Below, piece by piece: positions 19,561 through 59,470 of a stretch of DNA of 64,000 nt. Under the pieces are notes generated by a model, which searched no databases, was not told where the DNA came from, and saw only the letters and a program-made list of their open reading frames with translations. Each line of letters starts with the position of its first letter. The stretch's first letter is position 1. This stretch comes from Bacillus sp. HMF5848 (GTDB lineage: Bacteria; Bacillota; Bacilli; Bacillales; HMF5848), in contig NZ_RWIV01000001.1 in NCBI RefSeq assembly GCF_003944835.1, forward strand, positions 380,001 to 444,000, read 5' to 3'. Made by a program: the position numbers and the translations under genes.

Positions 19561-19860
19561 ATGCAAATTGAAAAACTACGCGGGAAAGAATTAGATCAGC
19601 TATTTAATGCTGTCTTGTCTTTAAAGGATTTAGAGGAATGTTATCGTTTTTTTGATGATCTTTGTACAGTAAATGAAATTCAATCACTTGCTCAGCGTTT
19701 AGAGGTAGCTAGAATGCTCCGGGAAGGCTTTACATACCATAAAATTGAAACAGAAACGGGAGCCTCAACTGCAACCATCTCTCGTGTAAAACGCTGTTTA
19801 AATTATGGTAACGATGCGTATGAAATGGCATTAGACCGAATTAAGGAAGAAAAAGAGTAA
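19561..19860 (+). CDS. yerC: TrpR-superfamily DNA-binding protein YerC/YecD
   Basis: This 99-residue all-helical protein has the TrpR-like fold: EIQSLAQRLEVARMLREGFTY precedes the helix-turn-helix HKIETETGASTATISRVKRC. The YerC/YecD family is conserved next to pcrB-pcrA in Bacilli and is presumed to bind DNA; its targets are not known to me. ATG 19561 has AAAAGGAG upstream. A strong terminator follows. Confidence 0.92.
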   Translation: MQIEKLRGKELDQLFNAVLSLKDLEECYRFFDDLCTVNEIQSLAQRLEVARMLREGFTYHKIETETGASTATISRVKRCLNYGNDAYEMALDRIKEEKE

Positions 19861-19867
19861 TATTTTG

Positions 19868-19905
19868 AACACATAATCCCTCTTAGGTGGTTATGTGTTT
19901 TTTTT
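19868..19905 (+). terminator. Terminator of the yerA-yerB-yerC operon
   Basis: AACACATAA (19868-19876) pairs with TTATGTGTT (19891-19899), followed by eight or more T. Confidence 0.9.
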
Positions 19906-19962
19906 GTTGTGGCTACCTGTCGGTTGAAAGAGGGTGAGCACAATCTGGTGCAACTGACAGGA

Positions 19963-20362
19963 TAATTGCGCATAACCTCAAAAATTTGGCGCATAACTAG
20001 AAAATACGCATAAACTTTAAAATTTGACGCATAAACAGGCGGAAATGGCGCATAAAACTTAAAATTTAGCGCATAATCAGGCGGAATTGGCGCATAAAAC
20101 TTAAAATTTGACGCATAAACAGGAGGAATTGGGACGTTAGCGCTTGGGATTTGCCCATAAATAGCGAGAGTTGCCCCATAAACATCTAGAAAATGCCCAT
20201 AAATAGCTGAAATTGGCCCATAACCTATTAAAATGTACCCATAAACAGCGGTGAATTGCCCGTAATCAGGCGGAATTGGCGCATAAACCATAAATTTCAC
20301 GCACAAACAAGTCGAATTCACGCTTAAACTCAAAAATTCACGCATAAAAAGGCGAGTGTATG
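19963..20362. repeat. Array A1: 19 degenerate units, 21-bp pitch, GCGCATAA core
   Basis: The CATAA element of successive units starts at 19971, 19992, 20009, 20030, 20051, 20072, 20093, 20114, 20135 (degenerate), 20156, 20177, 20198, 20219, 20240, 20261, 20282, 20302, 20323 and 20343. Fifteen of 18 intervals are exactly 21 bp. The unit consensus is roughly ATTGGCGCATAAACnnnnnA. Units from 20093 back to 20030 alternate two spacers (AACTTAAA and CAGGCGGA), giving a 42-bp higher-order repeat. Units from 20156 to 20261 have CCCATAA (or CCGTAA) in place of CGCATAA. The array begins 58 bases after the yerC terminator. Confidence 0.9.
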
Positions 20363-20462: not shown

Positions 20463-20600
20463 ATGACAAGTAAACCAATTCATTACGATGGAAGTGTACC
20501 AGCTGAAGCTAACACAGAAAGCGTTACCAGCGAACTGTTACAAATTACAGATGAAATGCGTTTGAATATTAGCGCCAATCCATACGAGGTAAAAGCTTAG
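20463..20600 (+). CDS. 45-residue hypothetical protein with its own expression signals
   Basis: The frame runs from ATG 20463 to TAG 20600. It has a strong GGAGGTG site at 20449-20455 and a perfect terminator hairpin beginning at the stop codon. The peptide starts MTSKPIHYDGSVPAEANTES and ends ISANPYEVKA; it is hydrophilic and acidic, with no membrane segment and no signal peptide. I do not recognise a family. The tight packing of RBS, frame and terminator makes it likely to be a real gene. It lies between array A1 and the azoreductase gene. Confidence 0.65.
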   Translation: MTSKPIHYDGSVPAEANTESVTSELLQITDEMRLNISANPYEVKA

Positions 20601-20703: not shown

Positions 20704-21339
20704 ATGGCTAAAGTTTTATACATAACGGCGCACCCACACGATGATAAAGTATCCTATAGTATGAGCGTAGGAAAAGCGTTCATAGATACGTATAGAGAGG
20801 TTAATCCAAGTGATGAAGTCGTTCATATAGATTTATATCGGGAGCATATTCCACATATTGATGTAGATGTTTTTAGTGGTTGGGGGAAGCTACAGCAAGG
20901 ACAAGGATTTGAAGAGTTATCTTCTGAGGAAAAAAATAAGGTTTCTCGTTTATCAGAACTTAGTGAGCAGTTTGTTTCAGCGGACAAATATGTTTTTGTA
21001 ACACCTTTATGGAACTTCTCGTTTCCACCAGTGATGAAGGTTTATATTGATGCTGTTGCTGTTGCCGGAAAAACGTTCCAGTATACAGACAAAGGCCCAG
21101 TGGGTCTTTTAACAGATAAAAAAGCATTGCATATTCAAGCTCGTGGAGGGATTTATTCCGAAGGACCAGCTGCAGCATTAGAAATGGGACACCGCTATCT
21201 AAACATTATTATGCAGTTTTTCGGCGTACCATCATTCGAAGGTTTGTTTGTCGAGGGTCACGCGGCTATGCCCGACAAGGCAGAGCAAATCAAGCGGGAT
21301 GCAATTGCTCGTGCAAAAGAGCTTGCGAATACGTTTTAA
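20704..21339 (+). CDS. azoR: FMN-dependent NADH-azoreductase
   Basis: This 211-residue flavodoxin-fold protein starts [20 protein letters not shown], and [20 protein letters not shown] is the FMN/active-site region. [20 protein letters not shown] matches the GG(I/V)YS segment of AcpD/AzoR azoreductases. They reduce azo and quinone compounds with NADH by a ping-pong mechanism; quinone detoxification is the likely natural role. ATG 20704 has AAGAGGG upstream. It is a single-gene unit. Confidence 0.9.
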
Positions 21340-21397: not shown

Positions 21398-21520
21398 AAA
21401 ATACGCATTAAACGTAATATTTAGCGCATAAACAGTAAAAATGGCGCATAACATGTAAAATTTCACGCATAAACGCGTGAATATAGCGCATAAACCTCAA
21501 AATCTCACGCATAAACTAGC
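21398..21520. repeat. Array A2: six units, 20-21-bp pitch, CGCATAA core
   Basis: CATWA elements start at 21406, 21427, 21447, 21468, 21489 and 21510, with intervals 21, 20, 21, 21, 21. Cores alternate TAGCGCATAA and TCACGCATAA forms. The array lies between the azoreductase gene and the converging YebC-type gene, about 65 bases beyond the latter's terminator. Confidence 0.85.
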
Positions 21521-21584
21521 AACTCATAAAGAAACAGTTCAAGCCCATACTCAGAAACGAAATCTCGTCTAAAATCCAACAAAC

Positions 21585-36701: not shown

Positions 36702-36734
36702 AGCCGTGTTGTATATTAGCAACACGGCTGTTTA
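36702..36734 (+). terminator. Terminator of camS
   Basis: AGCCGTGTTG (36702-36711) pairs with CAACACGGCT (36720-36729). The T tract (GTTTAA) is the first unit of the repeat array that follows. Confidence 0.75.
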
Positions 36735-36850
36735 AGCGCGAGTTTTTGGGGTTTAAGCGTGAATTTCAGGGATTTATGCGTGAGTTTCAGGGGTTTAAGC
36801 GCGGGTTTTTGTGATTTATGCGCGAATCCCCCCAGAGATTAAGAGTGAAT
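36731..36850. repeat. Array A3: five to six units, 21-bp pitch, opposite orientation
   Basis: TTTAWGCG starts at 36731, 36752, 36773, 36794 and 36815, four intervals of exactly 21. A degenerate TTAAGAGTG at 36839 may be a sixth unit. On the + strand the core reads TTTATGCG/TTTAAGCG, the reverse complement of the core in arrays A1 and A2. The rest of the gap to 37053 is AT-rich, with a likely promoter for the next gene that I cannot place exactly. Confidence 0.88.
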
Positions 36851-47411: not shown

Positions 47412-47523
47412 CAAACACCTGTCGAGCTAACACCGTTTCGTGTCGACTACGTTCTCATTTGGTGTCGAATACGTACCCTATTCATGTCGAATAACTACCC
47501 ATTCTGTGTCGACTCTGTACCTA
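47412..47523. repeat. Array B1: five units, 21-22-bp pitch, TGTCGA core
   Basis: GTCGA starts at 47421, 47442, 47464, 47486 and 47508, with intervals 21, 22, 22, 22. The best units read TGTCGAATACGTACCCTATT-like, with TACC at a fixed distance after the core. The array begins about 45 bases past the gatB terminator. Between it and the next promoter (47524-47660) I see only AT-rich sequence. Confidence 0.85.
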
Positions 47524-59332: not shown

Positions 59333-59470
59333 ATATGTCAAATTGGTGAATATCGACACAGAAGTGGTAATAATCGACACGGAACTGGTAGATATTCGAC
59401 ACAGAAGTGGTAGAATATCGACACGAAACCTGTAGATAATCGACACAAAAGTGGTAGAAATGCAACATGG
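59333..59470. repeat. Array B2: five to six units, 21-22-bp pitch, TCGACAC core (reverse of B1)
   Basis: TCGAC starts at 59353, 59374, 59396, 59418 and 59440, with intervals 21, 22, 22, 22. TGCAACA at 59461 is a degenerate last unit. Read on the minus strand the unit is close to GTGTCGATWWTCTACCACTT, with TACC at the same offset as in array B1. It lies between the ABC terminator and the SMP-30 gene and must contain or abut the promoter of that gene. Confidence 0.88.

Follow-up and report, generated by a model that had tools for sequence, protein, structure and literature searches.

Introduction

Direct repeats with a pitch of about 20-22 bp that are bound on one face of the helix are found in plasmid replication iterons and in the parC repeats of ParR, and a replicon has a single set of these next to its rep or par genes. 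On chromosomes, the STAR element (Staphylococcus aureus repeat) consists of a 14-bp GC-rich core, T(G/A/T)TGTTG(G/T)GGCCC(C/A), and spacers of at least 40 bp, with repeats of about 50 nt that are often identical within a locus (PMC3532100). BldC of Streptomyces is a small protein that binds direct repeats of variable number head-to-tail and distorts the bound DNA; its sites are composed of 9-bp repeats at promoters, with one helical turn between protected tracts (PMC5859096). The TAACTGA repeats of Beggiatoaceae are abundant, lineage-restricted intergenic direct repeats, in which uninterrupted 7-bp units lie mostly just upstream of start codons (PMC4679880). Literature searches on the topic found no paper describing the arrays reported here.

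In this study, an array of 19 units was analysed in Bacillus sp. HMF5848, within a stretch of 64,000 nucleotides (positions 380,001 to 444,000 of contig NZ_RWIV01000001.1; hereafter, the window). The array and its relatives resemble STAR in being intergenic direct repeats at multiple loci with a conserved core and variable spacers, and also in that the spacers are specific to each locus and seldom transferred to another, arrays grow and shrink locally, and the loci differ between species (PMC3532100). Unlike STAR, they have spacers of 11 bp, a persistent pitch of 20-22 bp tied to two helical turns, spacers that are nearly saturated, and cores that change between lineages. Since the core RCGCATAAAC and the 11-bp spacers (187 of 196 core pairs at exactly 21 bp) differ from the STAR core and spacing, membership of STAR was rejected. 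The earlier note had stated that it knew of no described element of this kind; that statement has to be qualified, as STAR is a described core-plus-spacer intergenic direct repeat (PMC3532100).

The arrays share with BldC sites the variable number of direct repeats and a periodicity that follows the helix, but they span two turns, are intergenic, and are seen from the DNA side alone, whereas BldC is a known protein (PMC5859096). They also share with the TAACTGA repeats their abundance, restriction to lineages and intergenic position (PMC4679880). In contrast to iterons and parC repeats, the arrays number in the tens, lie on the chromosome next to housekeeping genes, and matched nothing in the plasmid collection. 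Affiliation with CRISPR, in which cas genes accompany repeats that are identical and 23-47 bp long and spacers that are unique and non-homologous, was rejected, as the core here is 10 bp and the spacers show a consensus and a 42-bp alternation. The core GCGCATAAAC is identical to a half-site of parS from chromosome II of Burkholderia cenocepacia, gTTTATGCGCATAAAc (PMC7022226). Arrays of ParB half-sites were rejected, as no additional ParB was found and all array-bearing genomes searched encode exactly two ParB_N proteins, like most of the others searched.

Results

Structure and surroundings of the 19-unit array

The features of the window that concern the arrays are as follows.

19561..19860 (+), yerC (TrpR-like) gene, upstream of the 19-unit array; landmark for inspecting the site in relatives
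19868..19906 (+), hairpin with a T run after it, downstream of yerC and ahead of the 19-unit array (read by eye)
19968..20360 (+), 19-unit array with a 21-bp pitch; consensus RCGCATAAAC followed by an 11-bp spacer
20153-20265, block of the variant core CCCATAA inside the 19-unit array
20704..21339 (+), gene resembling an FMN-dependent azoreductase, located between the 19-unit and 6-unit arrays (named by inspection)
21403..21527 (+), second CGCATAA-family array, 6 units, between the convergent azoreductase-like and yebC-like genes
36719..36823 (-), third CGCATAA-family array, 5 units with cores RCGCATAAAT / RCGCTTAAAC
47440..47512 (-), TCGACAC-family array with a pitch of about 22 bp
59352..59458 (+), array of a different family with the core ATCGACAC and a pitch of 21-22 bp

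The earlier note had reported CATAA at 19 positions. Nineteen register positions were indeed present from 19971 to 20343, of which 15 carry an exact CATAA and four carry degenerate units (20132, GGACGTTAG; 20258, GCCCGTAA; 20300, CGCACAAA; 20321, CGCTTAAA); one extra CATAA at 20289 is out of register. The series of intervals was 21, 17, 21 (five times), 21, 21, 21 (six times), 20, 21 and 20, and the previous count of 15 intervals of exactly 21 bp among 18 was reproduced, the others being 17, 20 and 20. On the + strand of the window, 13 pairs of CATAA were found at a lag of 21, versus 0-1 at each other lag from 15 to 29, and TRF scored the array at periods of both 21 and 42. The spacers vary, as previously noted, although not freely: a loose RRRAWTT pattern and an alternation of 42 bp are retained. 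While the array is the largest in the window, as had been claimed, the genome contains a longer one (see below).

The array begins approximately 60 bp past the hairpin and T run 3' of yerC, and the third array starts 35 bp past the 3' end of a gene. A small open reading frame of 45 codons (20463-20600) with a strong Shine-Dalgarno-like GGAGGTG lies between the 19-unit array and the azoreductase-like gene, and it is followed by a hairpin and a T run. A protein-coding heptad repeat was rejected as an explanation, since the reading frame is lost where the pitch shifts to 17 or 20 and the arrays are intergenic; a 226-aa open reading frame had no Pfam match above the cut-off, and 17 of 35 arrays lack a stop-free frame.

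Genome-wide distribution of the arrays

Two cores at a pitch of 21 gave 134 matches in the 4.5-Mb genome of the strain, and the pattern read backwards gave 0. When the spacing of core pairs was left free between 11 and 40 bp, 187 of 196 pairs were at exactly 21 bp, with 2 in the backwards control. The family was collected by a position weight matrix (PWM) search of the genome, which yielded at least 37 arrays with 331 units. Among 294 intervals in the 37 arrays, 255 were 21 bp, eight were 20 bp and none was 22 bp, and only 16 of 271 short intervals departed from 21 bp. The longest array has 33 units without any deviation in pitch (C1 702,922-703,614). In the family consensus, RCGCATAAAC is followed by an 11-bp spacer of the loose pattern MNNRRRAWTTS, and conservation was strongest in the CGC portion of the core, not in the A-tracts. 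The full core was not enriched outside arrays in 464 kb (1 occurrence versus 1 in the reversed control).

All 37 arrays were intergenic according to simple calling of open reading frames. They occupied 27 co-directional, 9 convergent and 1 divergent gaps, as compared to 77, 14 and 27 among background gaps of at least 150 bp; divergent gaps were thus avoided (1/37 versus 27/118). The arrays often lie behind the 3' ends of genes, and their orientation relative to the nearest 3' end was random (19 same, 17 opposite). The neighbours of the arrays examined are ordinary housekeeping genes, such as those for SirC, ThiM, FtsX, cytochrome c551 and an MCP. A comparison of array positions, strands and replichores gave no strand or replichore polarity. 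An arc of 1.13 Mb (C1 1.36-2.49 Mb), which contains the terminus at about 2.1 Mb, is free of CGCATAA arrays (P = 0.004 for the largest empty arc). The spacers of the array at 884915 contain CCCGGGAAAT, which resembles part of the Noc box. Contig C2 (29 kb) repeats the arrays and spacing of C1 3.941-3.960 Mb and looks like a duplicated or misassembled segment.

A second family, TCGACAC, was found in about 20 places with a pitch of 21-22 bp; in the window it is represented at 47440-47512 and 59352-59458. Its spacers fall into the subfamilies GGAACCGGTAGATAA, GTGAACGTGCATTT and CCGACGGCGGAAAA, and one of its arrays lies near the terminus, at 2.13 Mb. On the opposite strand the core reads GTGTCGA(A/T), which resembles the Spo0A box TGTCGAA. 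These arrays do not avoid divergent gaps; location is thus not indicative of one function. A different kind of repeat in this genome is a near-identical tandem repeat of 38 bp, TAACTCTGCATCCTGACAGGGGGATGGATCCCGTAATG (L300:11269-11571).

Conservation of cores and saturation of spacers

Adjacent spacers differed at 1482 of 2805 sites (47% identical), and spacer identity between arrays was 0.41, as compared to 0.408 expected for independent draws from the column composition; the spacers are near saturation. The identity of cores was 0.85 within arrays and 0.80 between arrays, where collecting arrays by a core model could partly build in core conservation. No spacer order shared between loci exceeded a null obtained by shuffling units (best block 0.77; null maxima 0.70-0.82). 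Since the best block fell within this null, there is no sign that one locus was recently copied from another, and dispersal by copy-and-paste was rejected. Within arrays, spacer identity at lag 2 was higher than that at lag 1 in 22 of 34 cases, and a few arrays are nearly homogeneous and young-looking (e.g. 3907321). These observations fit local amplification in steps of 21 and 42 bp followed by drift. The core variants CCCATAA, CGCAGAA and CGCAAAA are homogeneous within arrays and clustered by array.

Phased arrays in other lineages

Because collection with a core model might inflate core conservation, a core-free detector based on self-match at lags p and 2p only was used, and it recovered this architecture throughout the order. 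Periods of 20-22 accounted for 22 of 37 non-coding periodic segments in a set of scanned stretches, a count that includes some stretches of the genomes G071 and G037 selected for the arrays on them. A further 1.36 Mb from relatives, sampled without regard to where arrays lie, gave 20 and 21 as the two commonest periods (5 each), and period 26 was found in 4 segments, three of them at one locus. The core-free segments of G071 (118 kb) form a few recurring core families. The same detector found mainly heptamer-type and other repeats at non-Bacillales loci (403 kb) and nothing in 50 kb of E. coli.

The core word differed between genomes of the order, in which TCGGTCGT, TTTAAGCGAAA, GGGTTGAAT and TTCGCTC were found as other cores. 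TCGGTCGT at pitch 21 gave 204 pairs in G071 and 0 in 119 other genomes of the order. One genus (G049/G087/G003) has a pitch of 20 with the core TTTATGCG. In every family examined, a core of 8-11 bp is conserved and the remainder varies between loci, and core and pitch go together as family traits. The earlier note had proposed that random spacing in relatives would count against phasing; a strict pitch of 20-21 bp was kept.

CGCATAA pairs at pitch 21 numbered 187 in the strain studied and 31, 16 and 11 in a few other families. Degenerate 21-bp CGCATAA arrays were found in Sporosarcina, Aquisalibacillus, Amphibacillus, Salsuginibacillus, Neobacillus and Pseudoneobacillus, and also in Thermophagus (Bacteroidota). 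In Thermophagus xiamenensis, the 21-bp arrays have the core GCGCATAA and alternating CCTCTC/GGTCTC spacers, an apparent case of convergence. In Cloacimonadota and Patescibacteria, numerous places on the contigs have uninterrupted CGCATAA heptamer runs mixed with CGGATAA; they are like TAACTGA repeats, without the core-plus-spacer layout. Heptamer runs of CGCATAA and repeats of identical units, which a pattern scan found in many phyla, were set aside as chance or unrelated.

At one locus of the congeners G049 and G087, an array of 6 units is present in one genome and absent from the other, where the flanking gene is 95% identical. This fact implies that single arrays are dispensable. At another locus, both genomes carry a degenerate array in which the core and the 20-bp pitch were kept while the spacers and the number of units changed; this case is suggestive, being a single locus. 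Downstream of yerC, two relatives carry phased arrays with other cores, TCGGTCGT in G071 and TTCGGTAA in G028, with the words TATCGGTCGTC (G071, L210:1907-2057) and TTCGGTAAAA (G028, L214 about 1850-1960). The presence of other-core arrays at this site in 2 of 29 loci may be a coincidence in array-rich genomes.

Discussion

The arrays constitute a class in which a core of 8-11 bp recurs as direct repeats every 20-22 bp, and our tentative explanation, to which we give somewhat less than an even chance, is that core and pitch are held by a putative DNA-binding protein. As a pitch of 20-22 bp corresponds to two helical turns, the cores are all presented on the same face of the helix. An array would be born by local tandem duplication, in steps of 21 or 42 bp, from a pre-existing core-like word. 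A sequence-specific protein that needs several phased copies would then hold the core and the spacing while the spacers drift, and its assembly might be cooperative and head-to-tail, by analogy with BldC on direct repeats. Since the core and phase are conserved, the spacers are saturated, solitary sites are not in excess and orientation is random, a putative trans-acting binder of multiple copies is the simplest account; the lack of core enrichment outside arrays was counted in favour of avidity. At a weaker level, the bound array may serve, as DNA and whichever way it points, to separate transcription units as a boundary or roadblock or to organise the nucleoid between them, a role that fits best because the placement is intergenic and free of orientation.

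Several observations speak against a binder. The turnover of cores between lineages would be difficult to reconcile with a single conserved regulator that has hundreds of sites, the several core families in some genomes would need several binders, and nearly identical, young-looking arrays are what plain satellites would give. Since cores turn over and individual arrays are dispensable, a function that is diffuse, or a life cycle that is in part selfish, is favoured. A broader proposal, possible though doubtful, is that the two-turn phased arrays of Bacillales are a class of chromosomal element that has escaped notice and are read by lineage-specific putative proteins that co-evolve with the core word; the arrays would arise in place, come under selection on core and helical phase, and serve to organise or insulate transcription units, so that spacing is conserved and the word is replaceable.

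The arrays might instead be neutral or selfish satellite DNA, in which local tandem duplications of about 21 bp expand, drift and die without any function for the host, an explanation that we consider unlikely, if not by far. Growth in steps of 21 and 42 bp, the homogeneity of core variants in each array and the differences in array presence between congeners are as expected of such DNA. However, drift should strike core and spacer equally, yet the spacers are saturated while the cores are about 80-85% identical. One core at 37 arrays without shared spacer order, the scarcity of short intervals off 21 bp and the prevalence of 20-22 bp as the commonest non-coding period across genomes are likewise left unexplained by drifting duplication. 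The earlier note had offered a phased binding surface and, as the alternative, an old tandem duplication. Local tandem duplication does seem to be the origin, since copying across loci was not seen, but the contrast between core and spacer is too large for plain drift and in that respect favours a binding surface, where the binding itself is what we infer. Because the arrays seem to be born by local duplication, the two readings are not exclusive.

Recognition might also be unnecessary if phased A-tracts simply curve the array, which would pin a plectoneme or supercoil between genes without a specific protein. In a wedge model, CGCATAA arrays had a predicted curvature of 1.17 deg/bp, as compared to 0.57 for position-permuted units and 0.37 for genomic windows, and 29 of 34 arrays were within the top decile; the pitch of two turns and the random orientation are also in line with this structural role. 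The other families were inconsistent, with mean percentiles from 0.21 to 0.91, and the conservation of the CGC part of the core above the A-tracts points to sequence recognition. As curvature is high for the CGCATAA core but not for all families, it may assist and is not the common denominator, and we regard curvature alone as improbable. Somewhat less probable still is that a mobile element, REP/RAYT-like or driven by a transposase, has spread copies through the genome or left its remnants there. The single core family at many dispersed loci and the differences in loci between related species would agree with dispersal, and STAR elements have been suggested to require an unknown dispersal mechanism (PMC3532100). 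On the other hand, no two loci share a spacer order above the null, and the consensus units are direct, not palindromic, on inspection, where REP/BIME-RAYT elements have palindromic units and a cognate Y1 transposase. No transposase or other mobile-element gene was found among 20 flanking proteins scanned, and the match to a known satellite or mobile element family that the earlier note had named as a possible refutation did not appear. An origin from a phage or plasmid was rejected, since no match was found in phage or plasmid records. A function at the RNA level, in which transcripts of the repeats would work as small RNA or sponge, or as a terminator or Rho site, would suit the frequent position after gene 3' ends, but it is very improbable: the arrays point at random with respect to the nearest 3' end, the predicted folding is worse than that of shuffled sequences (z = +1.65), and the Rfam matches in the window are two riboswitches elsewhere, with none at the arrays.

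Judged from the sequence, these arrays suggest an unrecognised DNA-binding or chromosome-organising element. Even as satellites, they would be abundant and undescribed in the literature searched, and would naturally document how the helix constrains tandem duplication. Should the phasing be functional, the hundreds of intergenic sites would amount to a DNA platform that can be recognised as such. They would also be an unusual case in evolution, with spacing that is conserved and a sequence that can be replaced, and identifying the protein on the arrays would fill a gap in the biology of the nucleoid or of transcription boundaries.
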